A stretch of DNA of 64,000 bases from Desulfarculaceae bacterium (GTDB lineage Bacteria > Desulfobacterota > Desulfarculia > Desulfarculales > Desulfarculaceae), in the NCBI GenBank assembly GCA_021737645.1, contig JAIPDO010000010.1, forward strand, positions 19,551 through 83,550, given 5' to 3'. Shown piece by piece: positions 19,148 to 44,522 of this stretch. Below the pieces are notes generated by a model, which ran no database searches, had not been told where the DNA came from, and saw only the letters and a program-made list of their open reading frames with translations. Positions within the stretch are counted from its first letter, which is position 1. The number at the start of each line of letters is the position of its first letter. The translations under genes were made by a program, and so were the position numbers.

Positions 19148-19510
19148 GTTGAAGCCGACAAGGACGCGTACGACGCCGTCTTATTGAATCGATCAAAACA
19201 TTTCAGAGGCTGCTTCTAAACTCCCTCCCAGCTTTCACATAGCTGCCTTTTGCCCGTGCCTTGCGCTGCAAAATGCTATGATTTTAGTAGGAGCTCCAAC
19301 TTCAGAACAATTTTTGAATAGACGGTTGGGGCGTTGCGGAGCAACGGAACGCCTAACGCGTTTAAAAGGCCGCCGTTGCGGTCGAAGCCAAGCTAAATAT
19401 TTAGACTCGCCATCCTGAACTTTACTTCTTGAAATCCGAGTCTGCCCCTGCGTTGGCCATGATTGGCCCGCGGTAACCTGTCTGCGCACCAGCTATTAAA
19501 GGAGTCATCC

Positions 19511-22498
19511 ATGCAGCCTGCCCTGAGCCCCAAGCCGGCTGAGCAGTTGTACGCCCTGCTCAGTTCCACCGCCGAGATGTTCAACGAGCGCCCCGACCTT
19601 CAGGACGAAATGAAGGGCACCCAGGGCTGGATCAACGCCACGGTGGGCTTCCGCGCAGCAGACGGCAGCATGGGTGCGGCGGTGGCTATAAAACAAGGCT
19701 CCGTCACCGCCCTGGACCACCTCCCCGAGGACAGGGACGCCTGCCTGGTGTTCCGCACCGCCGCGGACTTCAACGCCTTCCAGAGCGCCAGCAAGGACGA
19801 GGCCTCCAAGATGATCCTTAAGGGCCGCATCTGGATCGAGGGGACCATAGCCTATTACAACTATGCCGAGTATTTGGTGAACCTTTTGTTTCTGGATCAG
19901 GCCAAGTCGGTGGCCGAGCAGACGATGCACGAGCACAAGCTGGAGAATTTGCGCATCGCCGACGGCGCCGACACCAGCGGCCGCGATGAAAAGGCGCGGC
20001 GCAAGACAGAGCGCCTGCGGGGAGAGAGGGTGGACCCCGGCGTGAAATGGCTGGAAGACCCTTATCTCTCCGAGATGGGCATGGAGGACTTCCCCCGCTT
20101 GGAGCGCTTCCGCAGGGAGTTGTTCAAGACCAAGGCCCAGGTGAGCAGCGAGCACGGCAAGCTGCTCACCGACTTTTTCGTGGCCAACGGCTACGAAACC
20201 ATGCCCGACGGCACCCCCTGGGAGCCCAACCTGCGCAAGGCCAAAAGCTTCTATCACCTGATGGCCAATCGTCAAGCCCTGATCCGCCAGGGCGATCTGC
20301 TGGCCGGCACCTACACCCCTTACCCCGTCTTCGGCCTGGTCAACCAGCCTTACACTTTTGGCTGGCAGGTGTGGGGTGAGCTCAGGACCCTGGGCTTCCG
20401 CGAGCTGGATTCCTACCGCATTGACGAGGAGACCATCGAGACCCTTCACAAGCACGTGATGCCATTTTTCGCCACTCGCAACATCCAGGACCTGTGGAAA
20501 AAGCAATTCGACACCCCCCTGGCGTCCCAAATCCACGAGCGCTATTTCGCGGTCTTTTACTACAAGACCGTGTCCCACAGCCAGACCACGCCGGGCCATG
20601 TGAAGGTCATGAAGCTTGGCTTGGACGGCATCCGCGGGCTGATAGCCGACGAGCTGGCCAACGACCCGGCCGCCGACCAGGAGAAGAAGGACACCCTGGA
20701 AGCCATGAAGATAAGCATGGACGCGGTGTCCTCCTACACCAAAAACCTGGCCGCCCAGGTGAGCAAGGAGGCCGAGGCCGAGAGCGACCCAGCCCGCCGA
20801 GGCGAGCTGGCCGAAATTCACCGCATTTTATGCAAGGTGCCGGACCAACCGGCCGAGACGCTATACGAGGCGGTGCAGGCCATGTGGATCGTGCATGTGG
20901 CCCTGGGCCTGGAGAGCAGCGACGACGGGCCCCACTTGGGCCGCCTGGACCAACTGTTGCAGCCCTATTTCGACAGCGACCTTGCAAAGCTCGAGACCGA
21001 CCAGGAGCGCCAGGCCTATATCAAAAGGGCGGTGGAACTGATCGGCTGCCTGTACCTGCGCCTGTCCAGTCACTACAACATAACCATGGAGATCACCTCC
21101 TGGATGAACTCCGGCGGGCCGCCTTCGACCACCATCAACCTGGGCGGGGTTGCCCCGGACGGCGGCGACGCGGTCAACGACATGACCTACGTGATCCTCA
21201 AGGTCACCGAACTGCTGAACCTCAACGACCCCAACATGCACGCCCGCTTCATGCCCGGGGTCAACAGCGAAACCTATCTCAAGCGGGTGTGCGAGGTGAA
21301 CTACATTACCGGGGCCACCCCCTGCATCCACAACGACGCGGCGGTGATCGATGCGCTCACCGGGGTCAATAACGACTGGCCCCTTGAGGACATCCGGGAG
21401 TGGACCGCGGTGGGCTGCGTAGAGCCCTGCCTGTCGGGGATGCACTTCCCGGCCACCGGCAGCATAGAGCTCAACCTCATGGCCCCCTTGGAAATGGCGC
21501 TTAACAATGGGGTGCATCCCCTGCTGGAGTGGGCTTTGGGGCCCCAGACCGGCAAGGTGGAGGAGGGCGACTTCGAGACCTTCGATGATTTTATGGAGGC
21601 CTTCACTCGCCAATACCACTTCCTGTGTGGGGTGAGCGTGGAGGGCAACAACCAGCTGGGCCAAATCCACCAGCAGCACATGCCCTCGCCCCTTATCTCG
21701 GCCCTGGTGGATGACTGCATCTCCAAGGGCCGGGGCATTACCCGGGGCGGCGCCCGCTACAACACCAGCGGGGTCACCTCCATCGGCATGGCCGATGTGG
21801 CCGACTCGCTCAGCGCCATCAAAAAGGCGGTTTACGATGACAAGAAGGTGAGCTTCAAGGAACTCAAGGAGGCGCTCACCTACAACTTCGAGGGTTACAA
21901 GAATCTCAGGGCCTGGATACAGAACCATGTGCCCAAGTTTGGCTCCGGCGACCCAGGAGCCGTGGATATGGCCCAGCGGGTCACCGGCATGGTGGCCGAC
22001 TACGTGCACGGCCAACAAAACTACCGGGGCGGGCACTACACCTCGGGCTGGTGGTCCATGAACTACCACGCCATCTATGGCCGGGTCTCGGGCGCCTCGC
22101 CCTCGGGCCGCCTGGCCGGAGAGGCCTTCACCCCCGGCCTGACCCCCCAGGCCTCGGCCTCCAAGAACCTGCTGGACAACCTGCTGGACGTGGCCAAGCT
22201 GGACCCCACCACAATGGACAACAACATCGCCTTCAACGTGCGGGTGGTGCCTTCGGCCAAGGACAGCCACGAGCAGACCATCACCCGCATGAGCGATACC
22301 ATCAGGGCCTACTTCGAGCAGGGCGGCATGCAGGTGCAGTTCATCATGATCAACACCGACACCCTGCGCGACGCCATGGCCCACCCGGAGTACTACCCCG
22401 ACCTGCTGGTGCGCATCTCAGGCTATTGCGGCTACTTCACCAAGCTGCACCGCGACCTTCAACTGGAGATCATCCGGAGGAATGAATATGGCCTCTGA
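19511..22498 (+). CDS. Glycyl radical enzyme (PFL-like) with N-terminal SCP2-like domain
   Basis: C-terminal glycyl-radical motif LLVRISGYCGYF (Gly codon 22421-22423), active-site VGCVEP (Cys codon 21416-21418); first ~125 aa read as SCP2 fold. SD aaaggagtcatccATG. Confidence 0.92.
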   Translation: MQPALSPKPAEQLYALLSSTAEMFNERPDLQDEMKGTQGWINATVGFRAADGSMGAAVAIKQGSVTALDHLPEDRDACLVFRTAADFNAFQSASKDEASKMILKGRIWIEGTIAYYNYAEYLVNLLFLDQAKSVAEQTMHEHKLENLRIADGADTSGRDEKARRKTERLRGERVDPGVKWLEDPYLSEMGMEDFPRLERFRRELFKTKAQVSSEHGKLLTDFFVANGYETMPDGTPWEPNLRKAKSFYHLMANRQALIRQGDLLAGTYTPYPVFGLVNQPYTFGWQVWGELRTLGFRELDSYRIDEETIETLHKHVMPFFATRNIQDLWKKQFDTPLASQIHERYFAVFYYKTVSHSQTTPGHVKVMKLGLDGIRGLIADELANDPAADQEKKDTLEAMKISMDAVSSYTKNLAAQVSKEAEAESDPARRGELAEIHRILCKVPDQPAETLYEAVQAMWIVHVALGLESSDDGPHLGRLDQLLQPYFDSDLAKLETDQERQAYIKRAVELIGCLYLRLSSHYNITMEITSWMNSGGPPSTTINLGGVAPDGGDAVNDMTYVILKVTELLNLNDPNMHARFMPGVNSETYLKRVCEVNYITGATPCIHNDAAVIDALTGVNNDWPLEDIREWTAVGCVEPCLSGMHFPATGSIELNLMAPLEMALNNGVHPLLEWALGPQTGKVEEGDFETFDDFMEAFTRQYHFLCGVSVEGNNQLGQIHQQHMPSPLISALVDDCISKGRGITRGGARYNTSGVTSIGMADVADSLSAIKKAVYDDKKVSFKELKEALTYNFEGYKNLRAWIQNHVPKFGSGDPGAVDMAQRVTGMVADYVHGQQNYRGGHYTSGWWSMNYHAIYGRVSGASPSGRLAGEAFTPGLTPQASASKNLLDNLLDVAKLDPTTMDNNIAFNVRVVPSAKDSHEQTITRMSDTIRAYFEQGGMQVQFIMINTDTLRDAMAHPEYYPDLLVRISGYCGYFTKLHRDLQLEIIRRNEYGL

Positions 22499-23432
22499 GA
22501 TGCGTTCCGGCCGCCCCTTGATCATCGACATCAAGGGCAACTCCCTGGACGACGGGCCGGGCACCCGCTCGGTGGTGTTCATGAAGGGTTGCCCCCTCAA
22601 CTGCGTATGGTGCCAGAACCCGGAGAGCAAAAAGATCGGCCCGGAGCTGTGGTTCGAAGCGGACAAGTGCGTGGTCAGCGGGGGGTGCATCCCCGCCTGC
22701 CCCGAAGGAGCCCTGGCCGCGGATGAGCCACTGGCCATTGACCGGAACAAGTGCTCCCTTTGCTTCGACTGTGTGGACGCCTGCCCTTCCACCGCCCTCA
22801 AGCGGGTGGGCCAGGATATGCCCGTGGAGCAGGTGGTGGCCAAGATCGTGCCCTACAAGCCCTTCTTCGACACCACCGGCGGCGGGGCCACCCTGTCCGG
22901 CGGCGAGCCCACCCTGTTCATGGAGTTCACTTCCCAGTTGCTCCAAGCGCTCAAGGCCGAGGGCATCCACACCCTGGTGGAAACCGCCGGCCTGTTCAAC
23001 TTCGACGCCTTTGCCGAGATGATCCTGCCGCACACCGACATGATCTACATGGACATGAAGATCATCGACCCCGAGTTGCACAAGCGTTGGTGCGGAGTGG
23101 ACAACCGGCGCATCAAGGAGAACTTCGCCCGGCTGCACAAAATGGCCGGCGGCGTCGGCGGCTTTTCCATCAAGCCCCGCACCCCCCTGATTCCCGGCAT
23201 AACCGACACCGACGAGATGATGGCCTCTTTGGCCGAGTTCTATCTGGCCCACGGGGTAAAGCTGGCCGCCCTGGAGAAGAACAACCCCATCTGGTTCGAC
23301 AAGAGCGAAAAGGTGGGGGTGGAGCCGGATTTCGCGGCCGACGACCCGGCGCGCAGCTTTTACGACAACCAGCGTTACGGCGGCATAAAGCAGTTTTTTG
23401 AAGACCAGGGCATCACCATTCTGGAGTCGTGA
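22488..23432 (+). CDS. Glycyl-radical-enzyme activating enzyme (radical SAM plus 4Fe-4S insert)
   Basis: FMKGCPLNCVWCQNPES radical-SAM CxxxCxxC; ferredoxin-like CSLCFDCVDACP; overlaps the 3' end of the glycyl radical enzyme gene. Confidence 0.95.
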   Translation: MASEMRSGRPLIIDIKGNSLDDGPGTRSVVFMKGCPLNCVWCQNPESKKIGPELWFEADKCVVSGGCIPACPEGALAADEPLAIDRNKCSLCFDCVDACPSTALKRVGQDMPVEQVVAKIVPYKPFFDTTGGGATLSGGEPTLFMEFTSQLLQALKAEGIHTLVETAGLFNFDAFAEMILPHTDMIYMDMKIIDPELHKRWCGVDNRRIKENFARLHKMAGGVGGFSIKPRTPLIPGITDTDEMMASLAEFYLAHGVKLAALEKNNPIWFDKSEKVGVEPDFAADDPARSFYDNQRYGGIKQFFEDQGITILES

Positions 23433-23456
23433 GCCGCCCGGAGCGAGGTGCAAGCC

Positions 23457-23969
23457 ATGACCAAAGACTGGAAATACTATCTGGGCATTTCCCTGTTCGC
23501 CTACAGCTTCATCCCCATCTGCGTGGTGGCGGCGCTGCCCTTTTTGGGTATGAGCCTGGCCGAGTCCGGCACCCTGGCCGTGGTGTTTTTGGCCACCGGC
23601 GAGGTGGCCTTCTACACGGCGGCTGCCCTGCTGGGCAAGGAATTCCTGGCCGCGCTCAAGAAACGTTTCATGGGCTGGTTCCGGGCCAAGGACCGCCCGC
23701 CCCAGCCGGTGAGCCGGACCCGTCACCGCGCCGGAGTGATTTTGCTGGCCCTTAGCTTCCTACCCTACTATGCCGTGCTGGCGGACCTGCTTTTCTTCGC
23801 GCCGTTGGGGGCGGAGATCACCTTTTTGGCTTGGACCCTGGTGGGGGGAGAGGTGCTTGGCATAGTGGCCCTGTTCATGTTGGGGGCTCCTTTCTGGGAC
23901 CGTCTAAAACAACTTTTCTGCTGGAACGGTGGCCAGGCACAGGGCCCGGTCCCGTCTGCCGCCCCCTAG
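23457..23969 (+). CDS. Small integral membrane protein ('transporter suffix'-like)
   Basis: Four hydrophobic segments in two similar halves (YYLGISLFAYSFIPICVVAALPFLGM / HRAGVILLALSFLPYYAVLADLLFFAPLG). Confidence 0.7.
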   Translation: MTKDWKYYLGISLFAYSFIPICVVAALPFLGMSLAESGTLAVVFLATGEVAFYTAAALLGKEFLAALKKRFMGWFRAKDRPPQPVSRTRHRAGVILLALSFLPYYAVLADLLFFAPLGAEITFLAWTLVGGEVLGIVALFMLGAPFWDRLKQLFCWNGGQAQGPVPSAAP

Positions 23970-23987: not shown

Positions 23988-24431
23988 ATGAAACGAGTTA
24001 TGCAATGCCTGCTGCTGCTGGCCCTGTTGTCTCTGATTGCCGCCTCCGGCGCCGTGGCCGGAGGCCTGGCCGGGGTGTGGAGCCTGGATATCAGCGATTA
24101 TAAAAACACCTGCGGCGGCAAACCTACCGCGGCCAAGGAGCTGAGCCTAACCCAGGATGGCCGCAAGCTCGCCGCGGCCATCGGGGTCAAGGGCGATGAC
24201 GGCAAGACCTACACCGGCACCTTCCATGGTTCCATGGACCAGGAGCAGCCACCGGCCAAGGCCTCGCTCTACGGCAAGTTCGAGGTGGCCGGCTTCAACA
24301 CCGAGGAGACGATCCAGATCAAGTTCTTGGATCAGAGCCGCTTTGCCGGAGCCTCCCAGTGGAAGACCCAGTCCGCTGACAAGAAGATCACTTGCGAGGG
24401 CAGCCAGAAGATAGCGGGCCGCAAAAAATAA
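23988..24431 (+). CDS. Small secreted beta-rich protein, last gene of the glycyl radical enzyme operon
   Basis: Signal peptide MKRVMQCLLLLALLSLIAASGAVAG; SD aaaggagaccgag; followed by a strong terminator. Confidence 0.7.
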   Translation: MKRVMQCLLLLALLSLIAASGAVAGGLAGVWSLDISDYKNTCGGKPTAAKELSLTQDGRKLAAAIGVKGDDGKTYTGTFHGSMDQEQPPAKASLYGKFEVAGFNTEETIQIKFLDQSRFAGASQWKTQSADKKITCEGSQKIAGRKK

Positions 24432-24584: not shown

Positions 24585-25007
24585 TTATTCAGCCGCCGGC
24601 TGGAAGCCCAGCACCGTGTCGCCGGAGCCGTCCGGCCCCCCCTTGATGAACACCACCTCCATGGGCTGGCCCAAGGCCACGGAATCCGGATCGCTCAACT
24701 CCAGGCCCAGCAAGCGCGCCACCACCCGGGTGCCTTCGGCCAACTCCACCACCCCCACGGCGTATGGGTTGTCACGGCTAAAGCCTTCCTGCTTGAGGGC
24801 GGGCGGAGGCACGGTGATGGCGGTAAAGGCGCATAGCCGTCCCTTGCCGGACATGGCCACCCACTCCATCCGAGACAGGCGGCAGGTGGGGCACAGGGGT
24901 CGGGGCGGAGTGTAAAGCTCTTGACAGCTATTGCAGCGGCACCCCATCAGGCGTCCCTGGTCCAGGTGTTTTTGAAAGGATGAGTCGCTGAAAGGCATGT
25001 CTTGCAT
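24585..25007 (-). CDS. Zn-ribbon OB-fold protein (DUF35 type)
   Basis: MGCRCNSCQELYTPPRPLCPTC rubredoxin-like Zn ribbon followed by OB-fold; adjacent thiolase. Confidence 0.88.
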   Translation of the reverse strand: MQDMPFSDSSFQKHLDQGRLMGCRCNSCQELYTPPRPLCPTCRLSRMEWVAMSGKGRLCAFTAITVPPPALKQEGFSRDNPYAVGVVELAEGTRVVARLLGLELSDPDSVALGQPMEVVFIKGGPDGSGDTVLGFQPAAE

Positions 25008-25010
25008 GAT

Positions 25011-26276
25011 CTATCTCCTTTCAAAGATGGTGAAGGTGCAGGTGCCGCCGGTGCCGCCCAGGTTGTGGGTGGCCCCCACCCGCAGGCCTTGCATGGGCAC
25101 TTGGCGCTCTCCCGCCTCGCCGCGCAACTGATGCCAAATCTCCACCACCTGGGATACCCCGGTGGCCCCCACCGGATGCCCCTTGCACTTGAGGCCGCCG
25201 GAGGTGTTTATGGGCTTTATTCCATCGCGCCGGGTCTTTCCCTCGGCCACCGCCCGGTAGCCGTGCCCCGGCGGGAAGAAGCCCAGGTCCTCCAGGTGGA
25301 TGATTTCGGCTATGGAAAAGCAGTCGTGGACCTCACAGACCTGAACGTCTCCAGGCTCCAAGCCGGACATGGCATACGCCTCGGCCGCCGCAGCCTGGGT
25401 GGCCTCGAACGAGGTCAGGTCCTTCTTGGCGTGCAGGCCCCTGCCGCTGCCCTGTCCCATGCCCGCCACATAAAGCGGGTGATCGGTGAAGTTGCGGGCT
25501 ATCCCGGCGGGTGCCAGAAGCACGCAGGCGGCCCCGTCGCTGATGGGGCAACAGTCGAACAGGTGCAGGGGCCAGGCCACCATGGGGTTGGCCTGGGGGT
25601 CGCCGAGAAAGGCCTTCTCATCGGCCCACTGGGGCGCCGGAGCTCCCTTGGCCAGGGCCTTTTGACGCTTGGCCTCCATCATCTCCGCCAGCGTGGCCTG
25701 GTACTGGGCCTTGGGGTTGAGCTTGCCGTTGAGGTGGCTCTTGATGGTCACGTCCATCAGGTGCTGACGCCCGGCCCCGTATTTGTGAAAATAGGCCGAG
25801 GCGGTGACCCCGAAAACGCCGGGGAAGGTAAAGCCCACCTGACCCTCGTAGGGCACCGTGGCCAAGGCCAGTCCTTCGGCCACTTCCTCGGTGCTCCGCT
25901 GGGACATCACCTCCACCCCGCCCACCAGCACCAGATCGTAGAGGCCCGAGGCGATGGCCAGCACTCCCTCGCGGAAGGCCAGGGCGCTGCTGGCGCAGGC
26001 TCCCTCGGTGCGGGTGGCCGGTTTGGGGATCAAACCCACCGCATCGGAGATGATGGGGCCCCAGTGGGCCTGGTGCACGAAAAAGTCGTTGCTGAAATTG
26101 CCCAGATACAAGGCTTGGATGTCGTCGGGGTCAAAGCCCTTGTCCACGGAGGCCAGCATGTCCTGGAAAGCCTCCACGAACAGGTCCTTGCTGTCCTTTT
26201 CCGGGAACACCCCAAAGGGGGACATGCCCGCCCCTACCACCACGACTTCCCGCGCCAATCTTAGGTGCTTGTTCAT
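25011..26276 (-). CDS. Thiolase (SCPx-like / DUF35-partner type)
   Basis: GACASSALAFREG, CEVHDCFSIAEIIHLEDLGF, KCKGHPVGATGVSQ, HNLGGTGGTCTFTIF. Confidence 0.92.
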   Translation of the reverse strand: MNKHLRLAREVVVVGAGMSPFGVFPEKDSKDLFVEAFQDMLASVDKGFDPDDIQALYLGNFSNDFFVHQAHWGPIISDAVGLIPKPATRTEGACASSALAFREGVLAIASGLYDLVLVGGVEVMSQRSTEEVAEGLALATVPYEGQVGFTFPGVFGVTASAYFHKYGAGRQHLMDVTIKSHLNGKLNPKAQYQATLAEMMEAKRQKALAKGAPAPQWADEKAFLGDPQANPMVAWPLHLFDCCPISDGAACVLLAPAGIARNFTDHPLYVAGMGQGSGRGLHAKKDLTSFEATQAAAAEAYAMSGLEPGDVQVCEVHDCFSIAEIIHLEDLGFFPPGHGYRAVAEGKTRRDGIKPINTSGGLKCKGHPVGATGVSQVVEIWHQLRGEAGERQVPMQGLRVGATHNLGGTGGTCTFTIFERR

Positions 26277-26344
26277 CTGTCCTATATCCTCCTGGTTGTC
26301 CAGGCGTAGGAGTTAGGCTCCGCCGCGCTACAGCACGGCTTCCC

Positions 26345-27910
26345 CTATCCCTTGCGGTCCTGGTTGCCCCAATACTTTGCGCGCAGATCCTTTTTGAGAA
26401 TCTTGCCGTAGTTGTTTTTGGGCAGTTCGTCCACGAAGTCGACGGACTTGGGTTTTTTGTACGAGGCGATGTGGTCCTTGCAAAAAGCAACCAACTCCTC
26501 GCCACTTATGGCTTGGCCGTGGACCAGGGTCACGATGGCTTTCATGGCCTCGCCCCACTGAGAGTCGGGCACCCCGATCACCGCCACTTCGCGCACCGCC
26601 GGATGGCGCAGCAAGACTTCTTCCACCTCGCGGGGGTAGATATTCTCCCCTCCGCTGATGATCATGTCCTTGGAGCGGTCCATGATGAACAGGTAGCCGT
26701 TTTCATCCAGGAGGCCCACGTCTCCGGTGTGAAGCCAGCCGTTGCGAAGGGCCGCGGCGGTGGCTCGGGGGTTGCGCCAGTAGCCCTTCATCACCTGCTC
26801 CGAACGGGTGACGATTTCACCGGTTCGGCCGGGAGGCAGGGGCCGGTCTTCATGGTCCAGTACGGCCACCTCCACGTCGGTGCGGGTAATCCCCGCCGAG
26901 GCCAAGCGGCGCATCTGTTCCGGAGTCCCCTCCAGCTTATGGTCGCGCTTGGGTAAATAGGTGATGGTCATGGGGGCTTCGCCCTGGCCGTAGAGCTGCA
27001 CCAGGCAGGGGCCCAGGGTGCGCATGGCCTGCTTGAGGTCCTCAACGTACATGGGCGCTCCCCCGTAGTTGAGGCATCTCAGCGAACTGTGGTCGTATTT
27101 GTCCGCGGCCGGGCTTTCCGCCAAGCGCTTGACCATGGTGGGCGCGGCGAACATGTTGGTGATGCGGTGACGCTCTATGGTCTTAAACACCATCTCCGGA
27201 TCAAAGGTCTTGCCTTCCAGGATTACGTTCAGGGCTCCCTTGGCGATGTTGGGCAGGGCATACAGGCCGCTGCCGTGGGACAGGGGCGCGCCGTGCAAGA
27301 TGGCGTCCTCCGGGCCCAGGGGGGATATGTCGGCGTAAAAATTCATGGTCATGGCCAGCAGATTGCGGTGGGTGAGCATGGCTCCCTTGGGCTGGCCGGT
27401 GGTGCCCGAGGTGTAAAAGAGCCAAGCCAACTGATCCGGGTCCACCCTGGCGTCCTCCAGCTCAGGGGAAGCGGCGGCCAGTAGGCTCTCGTAGTCCAGC
27501 AGCTCCCCCTCGGCGCCTTCCAGGGTGATGAAATGCTCCGCGTCGGGCATTTCCCGGCGCACGTCCATGATGGGCCGGTTGAATTCCGGCGATAGCACCA
27601 CCGCCCTGGCCTGGGAGTGGTCGATGATGTAGGCGCATTCCTTGGGGTGTAGCCGGAAGTTGATGGGAACCGCCCCGCAGCCCGCCTTGAAACAGGCGAA
27701 GATGGTTTCCAGGGTTTCAGGGTAGTTGTATTGCAGCACCGCGACGTTGTCGCCGGGGCGTAACCCCAGCCCCAAAAGGGCGTTGGCCAACCGGTTGGCC
27801 CGCTCGTTGAACTGGGCGAAGGTCAGCATTTTTGAGCCGTGCACCAGGGCCGGTTTGTCGGGATAGGTACTTGCGGCCTTGGTCAGAAGTTTTGCAAGAT
27901 TCATTGTCAC
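26345..27910 (-). CDS. AMP-forming acyl-CoA synthetase
   Basis: LFYTSGTTGQPKGAMLTHRN, GWLHTGDVGLLDENGYLFIMDRSKDMIISGGENIYPREVE, KNNYGKILKKDLR. Confidence 0.95.
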   Translation of the reverse strand: MTMNLAKLLTKAASTYPDKPALVHGSKMLTFAQFNERANRLANALLGLGLRPGDNVAVLQYNYPETLETIFACFKAGCGAVPINFRLHPKECAYIIDHSQARAVVLSPEFNRPIMDVRREMPDAEHFITLEGAEGELLDYESLLAAASPELEDARVDPDQLAWLFYTSGTTGQPKGAMLTHRNLLAMTMNFYADISPLGPEDAILHGAPLSHGSGLYALPNIAKGALNVILEGKTFDPEMVFKTIERHRITNMFAAPTMVKRLAESPAADKYDHSSLRCLNYGGAPMYVEDLKQAMRTLGPCLVQLYGQGEAPMTITYLPKRDHKLEGTPEQMRRLASAGITRTDVEVAVLDHEDRPLPPGRTGEIVTRSEQVMKGYWRNPRATAAALRNGWLHTGDVGLLDENGYLFIMDRSKDMIISGGENIYPREVEEVLLRHPAVREVAVIGVPDSQWGEAMKAIVTLVHGQAISGEELVAFCKDHIASYKKPKSVDFVDELPKNNYGKILKKDLRAKYWGNQDRKG

Positions 27911-27945
27911 TTCCAGTTGTATCGCGGTTGACTTTGAGGCAGGGG

Positions 27946-28764
27946 TCAGGCCATGACCCAGCCGCCATCCACGTTAAGCACTTGTCCGGTAATGTAGTTG
28001 GAGGCGCAGGAGGCCAAAAACAAAACCGCTTCGGCCATGTCCTGGGGTTGGCCGTCCCTGGCGATGGGCAGGCTTTTCACCCCGTAGTCGTAGCCTCGGG
28101 TCATTTCGGTCTCGCAGGCTCCGGGGGCTATGGCGTTCACCCAGATGCCGTCTTTGGCAAAGTCCTTGGCCGCCCAGCGGGTGAGGGCCAGGACTCCGCC
28201 CTTGGCCGCCGCGTAGGCCGGGCCGGAGCGCCCCCGCCGTAGTTCCGGCGGGTCGTCGGGCTTGGAAACGGCTCCTCCGATGATTCCGGATATGGAGCTG
28301 ACGTTGACGATCTTGCCGTAGCCCTGTTCGCGCATGTGAGGATAGGCCGCCTGCATGCCCAGGAACACCCCGCGCAGCACCACGTCCACCACCTTGTCCC
28401 AAACCTCCACGGTGGTTTCCATGAAGGGGTGGCGGTGCACCACTCCGGCGTTGTTCACCAGGATGTCCAGGCGCCCCAGGGCGGCTATCGTCTCATCCAC
28501 GGCGCGCCGCACCTGGCCGATGTCGGTGACGTCCGCCTGCACACCCAAGGCTTGGTACCCCTGGGCTCGCAGCTCGGCCAGGACGTCGTCGCAGGGCAGC
28601 AGGTCGCACACCGCCACCGCGGCTCCTTCACGAGCCAGCACTCTGGCTATGCCCGCCCCGATGCCCCGTGCGCCGCCGGTTACCAGAGCGGTGCGTCCCT
28701 GGAGCCCACATGCCCGGCTGGGTGGAAACAACGCGTCTCGCTTCACGACTGCTCCCCCTGACAA
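27946..28764 (-). CDS. Short-chain dehydrogenase/reductase
   Basis: TGGARGIGAGIA, NNAGV, Y(A)AAKGG, C-terminal ASNYITGQVLNVDGGWVMA. Confidence 0.93.
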   Translation of the reverse strand: MSGGAVVKRDALFPPSRACGLQGRTALVTGGARGIGAGIARVLAREGAAVAVCDLLPCDDVLAELRAQGYQALGVQADVTDIGQVRRAVDETIAALGRLDILVNNAGVVHRHPFMETTVEVWDKVVDVVLRGVFLGMQAAYPHMREQGYGKIVNVSSISGIIGGAVSKPDDPPELRRGRSGPAYAAAKGGVLALTRWAAKDFAKDGIWVNAIAPGACETEMTRGYDYGVKSLPIARDGQPQDMAEAVLFLASCASNYITGQVLNVDGGWVMA

Positions 28765-28807
28765 AGGTTCATCTGCCTATCGCAACTAACCGAAAACCGG
28801 GCCACGC

Positions 28808-30124
28808 CTACCTGCCCATGCTGTGTGGCAGCCAAAAACTCAACTCCGGAATCATGAAGATGATGGCCGTGGAGACGACTTCGAAGATCACGAACCAGAA
28901 ACACCCCTTGAATATGTCGGTCAGGCTCACATCGGTGACCACTCCGGCCAGGACGTAGACGTTCAGGCCCACCGGTGGGGTGATCAGGCCGATCTCGCAG
29001 AGCTTGGTGGCCAGAATGCCGAACCACAGAGGGTCGTAGCCCAGTTGGGTGACCACCACCGGGAACATGATGGGCAGGGTGACCAGCAGCATTGAAAAGG
29101 AATCCAGCAACATGCCCAGAGGGATGTAAAGGAGCAGGAACAGTGAGACCACGGCCCAGGGCGGCACCGGAAGGGTGGCCACGTATTGCGAAACCATCTG
29201 GGGCACCTGGGCCAGGGTGAGGAAAAAGCTATAGAGGCCCGCTCCCAGGATGACGATGAACACCATGCAGGTGGTGCGCAGGGTGGAGGAGAAGCTGTCC
29301 AGCACTTCGCTGCGCATACTCCACACCGCCCGCCGGCGGATGAACATGGCCATCATGGCCACGAAGGAGCCCACCGCCGCGGCTTCGGTGGGAGTGAACC
29401 AGCCGATGTAGATGCCCCCGATGACCACCAGGAACAGCAGGGCGATGCCCCATAGCCCTTTTAGGGATGAAAAGCGCTCGCGCCAGGAAACAGACTCCGG
29501 GTCCGGGGCCAGGTCCGGGTATATGCGGCTGAGGAACAACAGGCCCAGAATGTAGATGATCACCGAGAGGATGCCGGGCAGGAAGCCGGCGAGGAGCATG
29601 GAGCCCACCGAGACGTCGGTGATGACCCCATAGAACACCAGGATGACGCTGGGCGGAATTAGGATGCCCAAGACGCCGCCCGCCGCCACCACTCCGCAGG
29701 CCAGCTTGGGGTCGTATCCGTATTTGCGCATCTCGGGCACGGCCACGTAGCCCATGGTGGCCGCCGTGGCCACGCTGGACCCGCAGCATGAGGCAAAACC
29801 GGCGCTGCCGATTATGGTGGCGATGGCCAGCCCGCCGGGGAAACGGGAAAACCACTTGCGCCCCACCCGGTACACGTCGTCGCCCAGGCCGCCGTGGTAG
29901 GCGAAGTTGCCCATGATAATGAACAGGGGCACCACCACCAGCAGATAGCTGGCCACCTGGGTATAGGGGAACACCCTCAGCTGGATCAAGGCGCTGGATA
30001 AATCTGATATGGCCGCGATGCCCAGGATTCCGGTGAGCCCCAGGGAGGCGTACACCGGCACTCCCAAGGCCAAAAAGAAAAGAACCACTGGAATGCTGGC
30101 GCAGACGGCGACTATTGGATCCAT
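28808..30124 (-). CDS. TRAP transporter large permease (DctM)
   Basis: CGSSVATAATMG, GILIPPSVILVFYGVITDVSVGSML, GLITPPVGLNVYVLAGV. Confidence 0.95.
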   Translation of the reverse strand: MDPIVAVCASIPVVLFFLALGVPVYASLGLTGILGIAAISDLSSALIQLRVFPYTQVASYLLVVVPLFIIMGNFAYHGGLGDDVYRVGRKWFSRFPGGLAIATIIGSAGFASCCGSSVATAATMGYVAVPEMRKYGYDPKLACGVVAAGGVLGILIPPSVILVFYGVITDVSVGSMLLAGFLPGILSVIIYILGLLFLSRIYPDLAPDPESVSWRERFSSLKGLWGIALLFLVVIGGIYIGWFTPTEAAAVGSFVAMMAMFIRRRAVWSMRSEVLDSFSSTLRTTCMVFIVILGAGLYSFFLTLAQVPQMVSQYVATLPVPPWAVVSLFLLLYIPLGMLLDSFSMLLVTLPIMFPVVVTQLGYDPLWFGILATKLCEIGLITPPVGLNVYVLAGVVTDVSLTDIFKGCFWFVIFEVVSTAIIFMIPELSFWLPHSMGR

Positions 30125-30201
30125 GTTAATTAATTCCTTGGCTGAGTTGACCGGCCGGACAAGGTGACGTCCGACTGCTGCCGTTTATTCATCGGCCCTG
30201 C

Positions 30202-30759
30202 TCATCCCTCGGCCCTGGCTATCGGCTCAAAGGGAAGGCGTCCGCGCAGGCGTTCTATCTCCGACCAGATGTCGATGATGAGCTGAAGACCGAGCATGTA
30301 ACAACCCAGGGGGATGAGCGATTTGATCCACCAGATAGGCATCTGCACTGATCCCCAACGGAACTCCCACATCATGATGGACTCCCAGGCTCCGATGGTG
30401 CTTTGCCAGGCCACCAGGAAGATAAAAACCAGGCAGACCGACCAGGCCAGCAGGTTCATGGCCACCAGGGATCGATTGGTCATGCGCTGCAAAAGAACGG
30501 TGACCCGAATGTGCCCCCGCTTGAACTGGGTCCAGGCCAGCCCCATGTATACGCAAATAACCAGCAGGGCCTCGTTTAGTTCGAACACGCCGGAGAGGGG
30601 GTAGTTGAACAGGTAGCGGGAAAGGGTGTCCGTGGTGGTGCTCAGGATCATCACCGCGATGGTCACCGCGGCCACAACCCCCATCACCGCGCAGAATATC
30701 CGGTAGCCCTTGGCCACTCTGGCGACGAGGGGCTCCTGTTTTTCGGGTGAATGCTGCAT
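30202..30759 (-). CDS. TRAP transporter small permease (DctQ)
   Basis: Four TM segments, RYLFNYPLSGVFELNEALLV...MGLAWTQFKRGHI; next to DctM. Confidence 0.9.
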   Translation of the reverse strand: MQHSPEKQEPLVARVAKGYRIFCAVMGVVAAVTIAVMILSTTTDTLSRYLFNYPLSGVFELNEALLVICVYMGLAWTQFKRGHIRVTVLLQRMTNRSLVAMNLLAWSVCLVFIFLVAWQSTIGAWESIMMWEFRWGSVQMPIWWIKSLIPLGCYMLGLQLIIDIWSEIERLRGRLPFEPIARAEG

Positions 30760-30878
30760 TAAAGGGTTTCCCTAACTGCAAAAGGGCAAAACGGCCTGAA
30801 CCGGTGGGCTGGAAAGCTTGGGCGGAGGCGGGAGCCATGCTCCCGCCCTCCACCGGGCGCCCGAGGGACGGCGCGAGA

Positions 30879-32003
30879 TCACTTGCCGTATTTCTCCTGA
30901 TAAAGCTCCCAGGCGTTTTTCAGCTTGCCCGGGTACTTCTTGATCAAGGCATCGACCTTGGCCTGGAAGGCCACGCCGTCAAACTTCATGGGCTTGGCGA
31001 TGGTGTTGATCCATACGTCGATCTGGGCCGGCTGCACCATGGCCTTGGCCTTGGCTATCTCCGCCGGGGACCAGGAGGAGAACTTGGCCCCCTTCTTGAC
31101 CATTACGTCCACGCTTTCGGCCATGAGCTTGGAGTAGAGCTCCAGGTACTTCCAGTTGTAGATGTCGGCCACCACGCCATTGATGATCTCTTTGAGGTCA
31201 TCGGGAAGCGACCGCCACAGCTTGCGGTTCATCACCACGGTAGAGGGAGCATGGGCTCCGGCCCCACCCTCGACGATGTAGGGGGCCTGCTCGTTGAGCT
31301 TCATTTTTTCCGCGGTGATGAAGGCGAAGGCAAAAGCGCCGTCGAGAATCCCGCGCTCCAGGGAGGTGTAGACCTCGCCTGCCACGATGGGCATGCCTCG
31401 GCCGCCCAGGCGGTTCACCGTGTCCGCCCCGATGCCGTAGCCGCGCACCTTGCGGCCCTTGAGGGAGGCCACGTCCGGCAAGGGTTTTTTCATGATAAAG
31501 GGGCAATAACCCCAGTTGGTGAAGTACAGGACGTGGGAGTTGTTGCGCTGCTCCCATTCCTTGCGCAACTCCGGAGTGCTTTCGTACATCTCGCGGCAGA
31601 CATGAAGCAGGGAGTCGGCCCGGTCGCAGCCCCGGTAGTACCATTCCAGGCCCCGGCTCAGGGGAACGTCGGAGGGGTAGTATCCATAGGCGATGAGGGA
31701 AAGTTCGGACAGGCCGTTGCGCACCGCCGGGAGGTGCTCGCCCACCTTGTGCAGGGAGCCGGACCAGAATTTCTTGATCTTGATGCGGCCGTTGCTGCGC
31801 TTGACCACCTCGTCCACGAACCAGTTGTCCAACTGAGCCGTCTCGGCGCTGGCGCCGATGTAGCAGTCGTACTTCATGGTGTAGACGCCCTTTTTGTCGG
31901 CCGCCAAGGCGCTCAACCCGGGCATAAAGGTAAGTCCGGCGCCGACCACCGCGCCGCCCAGCACGCTATGTTTCAAAAATTCACGTCTGGATACCCGCTT
32001 CAT
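30879..32003 (-). CDS. TRAP substrate-binding protein (DctP) with Tat-like signal
   Basis: MKRVSRREFLKHSVLGGAVVGAGLTFMPGLSALA; DctP core SEDGR-type region and RKVRGYGIGADTV. Confidence 0.9.
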   Translation of the reverse strand: MKRVSRREFLKHSVLGGAVVGAGLTFMPGLSALAADKKGVYTMKYDCYIGASAETAQLDNWFVDEVVKRSNGRIKIKKFWSGSLHKVGEHLPAVRNGLSELSLIAYGYYPSDVPLSRGLEWYYRGCDRADSLLHVCREMYESTPELRKEWEQRNNSHVLYFTNWGYCPFIMKKPLPDVASLKGRKVRGYGIGADTVNRLGGRGMPIVAGEVYTSLERGILDGAFAFAFITAEKMKLNEQAPYIVEGGAGAHAPSTVVMNRKLWRSLPDDLKEIINGVVADIYNWKYLELYSKLMAESVDVMVKKGAKFSSWSPAEIAKAKAMVQPAQIDVWINTIAKPMKFDGVAFQAKVDALIKKYPGKLKNAWELYQEKYGK

Positions 32004-32109
32004 AATTCCCTCCTTCAAAAAAAGATTGGTTGCTCCACTTTTGGCCTGCGATACCCCAGGGCAGGCCGGACAAAGCAACGGACAACCGCTCAACCTCCTG
32101 AAAATTTGT

Positions 32110-44355: not shown

Positions 44356-44431
44356 TGGCAGTCCCAACGGGACTCGAACCCGTGTCTTCGGCGTGAGAGG
44401 CCGATATCCTAGACCACTAGACGATGGGACC
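44356..44431 (-). tRNA. tRNA-Glu (anticodon CTC), CCA encoded
   Basis: GGTCCCATCGTCTAGTGGTCTAGGATATCGGCCTCTCACGCCGAAGACACGGGTTCGAGTCCCGTTGGGACTGCCA folds as a cloverleaf. Confidence 0.95.
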
Positions 44432-44448
44432 TTGCACAAACATATTTA

Positions 44449-44522
44449 TGGCTGGCGGACCAGGATTCGAACCTGGATAGGCAGATCCAGAGTCTGCAGT
44501 CCTGCCGTTAGACGATCCGCCA
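44449..44522 (-). tRNA. tRNA-Gln (anticodon CTG), CCA encoded
   Basis: TGGCGGATCGTCTAACGGCAGGACTGCAGACTCTGGATCTGCCTATCCAGGTTCGAATCCTGGTCCGCCAGCCA; acceptor TGGCGGA/TCCGCCA, loop CTCTGGA. Confidence 0.95.

Follow-up and report, generated by a model that had tools for sequence, protein, structure and literature searches.

An SCP2-like lipid-binding domain fused to a glycyl radical enzyme in a Desulfarculaceae bacterium and in a widespread family of relatives

Main finding

The window, i.e. the whole 64,000-nucleotide stretch of Desulfarculaceae DNA that was analyzed, encodes an oxygen-sensitive glycyl radical enzyme (GRE) with an SCP2 lipid-carrier domain at its front. The same fusion occurs in hundreds of other anaerobic bacteria, in a widespread, apparently undescribed family whose probable role is the radical conversion of fatty or lipid-like molecules. 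With a probability of about 0.55, these proteins are eliminase-type GREs acting on a hydrophobic substrate that is presented by the fused SCP2 domain. The domain make-up, the catalytic residues, the activase and the unity of the family were established by comparison and modelling. To our knowledge, the substrates of characterized GREs are small molecules, or hydrocarbons in the case of BSS/MASS. Among the open-access papers searched (subscription papers were outside the search), none described a GRE with a lipid-carrier domain, and no report of a GRE with SCP2 or of a GRE in connection with ether lipids was found.

The gene and its catalytic core

The gene of the SCP2-fused GRE (19511..22498, + strand) is an intact in-frame ORF of 995 aa that starts with the ATG at 19511. 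It is preceded by the ribosome-binding site AAAGGAGT (about 19498..19505, +), which was read directly from the sequence and graded as a good Shine-Dalgarno motif. Behind the SCP2-like domain described below, the protein contains a helical linker with a conserved D-P-Y-L motif (residues ~126-195; 19886..20095, +), visible in the family alignment and the full-length model, a PFL-like barrel domain (residues 196-857; 20096..22081, +; PF02901, E 1.6e-152), which was also matched to eliminase-type GREs by Foldseek, and a glycyl radical domain (residues 873-977; 22127..22441, +; PF01228, E 2.8e-23). Both Pfam scores are far above the cut-offs, and the full-length model has a pLDDT of 89.0 and a pTM of 0.91. 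Barrel, central cysteine, glycyl loop, activase partner and fold are all those of the GRE superfamily, for which more than 25,000 members are predicted (2024 aminoacyl-radical paper, PMC11528403). In its own genome (assembly 4.05 Mb, 94.4% complete) the protein is the sole PF02901 match.

The motifs GCVEP and RISGYCGYF reported in the first-pass annotation are present and contain the catalytic Cys636-Val-Glu638 (21416..21424, +), located by alignment of family members and references, and the glycyl radical site Gly971 (22421..22423, +). No variation was seen at C636, E638, H645, T649 and G971 among the 89 full-length family members, and Cys636 and Glu638 are also shared with the CutC, HypD and PflD references.

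The extra N-terminus claimed for the 995-aa ORF is conserved in relatives. It is retained in two genomes of the same genus (the first 250 residues are 86-87% identical), and ORFs of about 970-1080 aa are kept at 89 loci, which shows that the ~190 additional residues are real and not a frame artefact. The nearest named relative (L069), likewise from a Desulfarculaceae bacterium, is 88% identical.

The N-terminal SCP2 domain

Residues ~8-125 (19532..19885, +) are firmly assigned to an SCP2-like lipid-binding domain by family profiles and the structure model, the window sequence alone being insufficient for this purpose: its first 190 residues gave no match in Pfam, NCBIfam or the PDB. The Pfam SCP2 profile (PF02036) matches the N-termini of 14 out of 32 relatives at E<=1 (best 1.5e-5), and one member of the window's subgroup (L072) passes the curated cut-off (23.4 vs. 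21.3 bits). Searched against the PDB, a profile of the family N-terminus matched SCP2 chains only, weakly (E 0.06-0.07). Aligned by hhalign to a reference of 25 SCP2 domains that Pfam detects in the same phylum, it reached a probability of 92.7 (P 4.4e-7), compared to a best probability of 3.2 and a best P of 0.014 for 60 shuffled-column controls. The AlphaFold model of residues 1-190 has a pLDDT of about 90 over residues 11-120, and its 46 best Foldseek matches in the PDB are SCP2 proteins, alkylsulfatases or homologues of these (E from 4.6e-6). A weak match was obtained to cyclopropane fatty acid synthase, and the Alkyl_sulf_C profile weakly matches the N-terminus of the GRE from Fangia hongkongensis. 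Alkylsulfatases and cyclopropane fatty acid synthase are enzymes that act on alkyl or acyl chains. The SCP2 fold suggested at first was thus borne out by Pfam on relatives, by hhalign and by structure prediction, the latter being a check that could have spoken against it.

The same fold is found in AF1534 (3BN8), UbiJ (6H6P) and rabbit and human SCP2 (Foldseek E 5e-6 to 3e-4), which are free-standing carriers with 12-19% identity, whereas the domain in the window is fused to a radical enzyme. The closest design precedent are the alkylsulfatases SdsA1 and Pisa1: beside the catalytic domain, they have an SCP2-type domain that serves alkyl substrates, and their SCP2-type regions match the N-terminal model. 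These are hydrolases with a C-terminal SCP2 domain, in contrast to the N-terminal position in the GRE.

Distribution and phylogeny of the family

A query with the first 250 residues matched 26 of the 396 genomes of the phylum, and 311 relatives were found in a scan of 85,462 species (one genome per species). The best 80 of these 311 represent at least 8 phyla, drawn from Thermodesulfobacteriota, Myxococcota (many titled 'Deltaproteobacteria'), Actinomycetota, Spirochaetota, Pseudomonadota, Chloroflexota, Vulcanimicrobiota, Bacillota and Planctomycetota, a count that may be inflated by contamination as nearly all hosts are MAGs. Fangia hongkongensis DSM 21703 is a host with a strain title.

Whether SCP2-fused members form a cluster of their own, a check named at first, was answered in the affirmative by phylogenetic trees, all support values of which are SH-type and not bootstraps. 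In a FastTree calculation with the cores of 146 GREs, 89 of 89 full-length SCP2-GREs fall into one group (support 0.948), and an IQ-TREE calculation with 57 sequences gave SH-aLRT values of 99 for the SCP2-GREs and 100 for these together with three sister GREs. The clade sits on a long stem of its own; it contains no characterized GRE, and the CutC, HypD, YbiW-like and PflD-like references lie outside. The three sister GREs (about 830 aa) lack SCP2 and start directly at the GRE core, and the fusion is retained in every full-length member of the clade. The simplest history is that SCP2 was gained once, on the stem of the clade. The window GRE belongs to group B (10 rows, SH-aLRT 100), which is nested within group A.

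No other GREs with SCP2 were found: in the PF02901 survey, ORFs of at least 980 aa were family loci except for one (G077), which was rejected as a further long GRE since its ORF is a stop-to-stop artefact. Likewise, no free-standing SCP2 gene was detected beside the SCP2-less sister GREs among the neighbours scanned (L192, on a short contig, was left out).

The best solved sequence relative of the sister clade is Archaeoglobus fulgidus PflD (2F3O; 426.5 bits), which is also among the closest to the SCP2-GRE family (525.6 bits). Its 776-residue chain matches the GRE core only, with about 28% identity, and we know of no demonstrated function for it. Near two of the three sister GREs, a DUF6765 protein is encoded (L207:7616-8737 and L208:12893-13957), which is a possible functional partner of the sister clade. 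A relative of these GREs at L209:3953-7038 (minus strand), adjoining a GMC oxidoreductase gene, is split over three ORFs, owing either to a sequencing error or to a pseudogene. On a plasmid of Moraxella osloensis (L204:1021-3426; NZ_CP024189.1), an activase and an HTH regulator are encoded together with a PFL-like GRE (about 800 aa) whose clade lies close to the SCP2-GREs. Moraxella osloensis is a skin bacterium that is usually regarded as aerobic.

Genomic neighbourhood

The GRE stop codon is overlapped by 17 nt by the ORF of a radical-SAM GRE activase containing two additional 4Fe-4S motifs (22482..23432, +), identified by Pfam and by TIGR02494 (244.9 bits vs. a cut-off of 174.35). Two genes for small proteins follow: a hydrophobic, membrane-like protein of 173 aa (23448..23969, +) and a protein of 147 aa with a signal-peptide-like N-terminus (23988..24431, +). 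Homologues of the former are located beside the GRE at L070 (39% identity) and in Fangia (L071, 25%) and none was found in the two same-genus genomes; it is a possible third member of the GRE unit. The latter is conserved downstream of the GRE unit in a genus-specific manner (74-76% identity in L032/L033). The window unit thus consists of GRE, activase and two small proteins, without TetR or SDR.

Across the 89 loci, the activase was found within 3 kb on the same strand at 54, which is an undercount because the picking of long ORFs hid some activases, including that of the window. Within the same limits lie 37 of 38 TetR-cluster genes, 14 of 18 classical SDR, 10 of 11 extended SDR (3beta-HSD/OleD/HpnA-like) and 6 of 16 acyl-CoA ligase genes; these are raw counts without a formal null that include related genomes and are therefore not independent. 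A frequent unit, of varying order, is TetR - GRE - activase - extended SDR - SDR. The TetR regulators are weakly FasR-like, the ligase is of the fatty-acid type, and a gene for a FadL-type outer-membrane protein is located upstream of one family GRE. TetR, SDRs and acyl-CoA ligases would fit a role in the conversion of lipids or alcohols. Of the lipid-like or CoA-linked substrate proposed in the first-pass annotation, a lipid-like one would agree with these family neighbours, and nothing points to CoA specifically.

The lipid-type neighbours occur mostly in group A, and most of them are absent from the window's subgroup, group B, where the neighbours are mixed. The argument for a lipid from SCP2 fold and group A neighbours is weaker for group B, to which the window belongs. 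At one group B locus (L077:14171-17581), a ribonucleotide reductase large chain with a LAGLIDADG intein is encoded two genes after the SCP2-GRE.

Proposed reaction and role of the SCP2 domain

In a Foldseek search with the full-length model, propanediol, glycerol and hydroxyproline dehydratases and CutC are closest (E about 1e-51 to 1e-47), followed at a distance by BSS/MASS (about 1e-39) and HPAD (about 1e-38). This ranking makes an elimination more likely than an addition to fumarate or a decarboxylation. The radical eliminase proposed earlier is supported by the invariant Cys-x-Glu and by the dehydratase and choline lyase folds, short of proof; the CVE motif also occurs in decarboxylases.

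We infer an elimination, a hydrophobic substrate and its delivery by SCP2 as follows. The adjoining activase would use SAM to create a radical on Gly971, which would pass on to Cys636 as a thiyl radical. A lipid-like substrate would be held at its hydrophobic part by the SCP2 domain, which would offer the functional end to the barrel. There, Cys636 would take a hydrogen and Glu638 would help the neighbouring group to leave, in the manner of the 1,2-elimination by diol dehydratases and choline lyase. The resulting carbonyl or fatty compound would, in the main branch of the family, be converted further by the dehydrogenases and acyl-CoA ligases encoded with the GRE. Possible targets are glyceryl ethers, long-chain diols or the head groups of lipids; by a radical 1,2-elimination on these, anaerobes would be able to break such molecules without oxygen. 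That the family represents a new functional GRE class, acting directly on lipids or long-chain substrates presented by a built-in carrier domain, is put forward tentatively, with the odds somewhat against it. With 311 relatives, common in sulfate-reducing and syntrophic lineages, the family would point to unrecognized anaerobic lipid chemistry in sediments. It is open to experiment since it forms a single clade with family-specific invariant residues and has a titled host in Fangia hongkongensis DSM 21703.

In some proteins, SCP2-like domains serve structure or membrane contact and not substrate delivery. An unlikely, though serious, alternative is that the domain anchors the enzyme to the membrane, helps in its assembly or senses lipid, while the barrel takes a smaller, more polar substrate. 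This would agree with the lower conservation of the N-terminal domain (mean column identity in the family alignment 37%, vs. 59% for the whole protein), and membrane contact would be in line with the hydrophobic 173-aa protein encoded next to the GRE in three group B members. Small molecules would also suit the group B neighbours amidohydrolase and AFOR (L072) and aldehyde dehydrogenase (L078). Delivery is favoured by the 33 of 118 SCP2 positions that stay hydrophobic in at least 90% of the members, consistent, as far as sequence can tell, with a kept core or cavity, and by the fatty-acyl-type ligases and FasR-like TetR found family-wide.

Comparison with known glycyl radical enzymes

The reading as an eliminase on a hydrophobic substrate was further compared with the known classes. 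With the propanediol and glycerol dehydratases (5I2G, 1R8W) and HypD (6VXC), the window GRE shares barrel, Cys-x-Glu, glycyl loop and a SAM-dependent activase, at Foldseek TM (target) values of 0.90-0.93. These enzymes lack SCP2, are about 30% identical and fall outside the clade of the window GRE.

That the protein is a divergent member of such a class, with glycerol, propanediol, choline, hydroxyproline or sulfonates as substrate, is improbable in spite of a core 26-30% identical to these small-molecule GREs. The scores stay far below the NCBIfam equivalog cut-offs (HypD NF043068, 428 vs. 1100; CutC TIGR04394, 361 vs. 1050; sulfopropanediol dehydratase, 344 and 331 vs. 1000; PRK09983, 339 vs. 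1109), and the family has its own long branch. For the active site, the residue roles in glycerol dehydratase, CutC and HypD are taken as general background, with positions checked against alignments. Compared to the B12-independent glycerol/diol dehydratases, Cys-x-Glu is present and the diol-binding residues are missing: H281, S282 and D447 are replaced by A/D, G and N/G/S, and near-invariants specific to the family, among them K352, S357, H645 and N713, stand in place of other residues. At the position of CutC D216 (position 358), the window GRE has Q instead of D, and from HypD it is separated by clade as well as by score.

The position of H164 in the C. butyricum glycerol dehydratase is His in 79 of 79 group A members and E, Q, A or P in group B, with Q in the window. 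Further pocket changes accompany H358 to Q/E in group B (F533N, G534S, D520S). In total, 13 strongly conserved core positions differ between the groups (e.g., D520S, F533N, G534S, N471D), so that, judged from these residues, group A and group B may act on different substrates.

More improbable still is a C-C bond-forming enzyme that activates hydrocarbons by addition to fumarate and uses SCP2 to recruit alkanes. A hydrophobic substrate would suit the domain, and many hosts belong to hydrocarbon-degrading groups, namely sulfate reducers and Smithella-type syntrophs. Yet BssA/MasD form, with HPAD, the weakest group in sequence and fold comparison: MasD/TutD score 302 and 267 bits, vs. 480-563 for most eliminase-type GREs, and match the window protein over the C-terminal ~600 residues only. 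BSS/MASS act on hydrocarbons with small Fe-S accessory subunits, Fe-S/rubredoxin-like small subunits being named as the known GRE accessory proteins (2025 MASS paper, PMC12358834). In the window, where ORFs of at least 70 aa were covered, the two ORFs directly 3' of the activase match no Pfam family.

An assembly or gene-calling artefact, which only the missing single-sequence Pfam match to SCP2 would favour, is refuted by the conservation of the architecture at 89 loci in many assemblies, including Fangia hongkongensis DSM 21703.

Other features of the window

A convergent cluster on the minus strand (24585-32093) encodes a ChsH2-type OB/zinc-ribbon protein, a thiolase, an acyl-CoA ligase, an SDR and a TRAP transporter, for which DctP was confirmed. 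It was rejected as a pathway of the GRE, being on the opposite strand and without a link to it, and looks like a separate catabolic operon. Furthermore, a tandem of tRNA-Glu(CTC) and tRNA-Gln(CTG) is located at 44356-44522 (minus strand).
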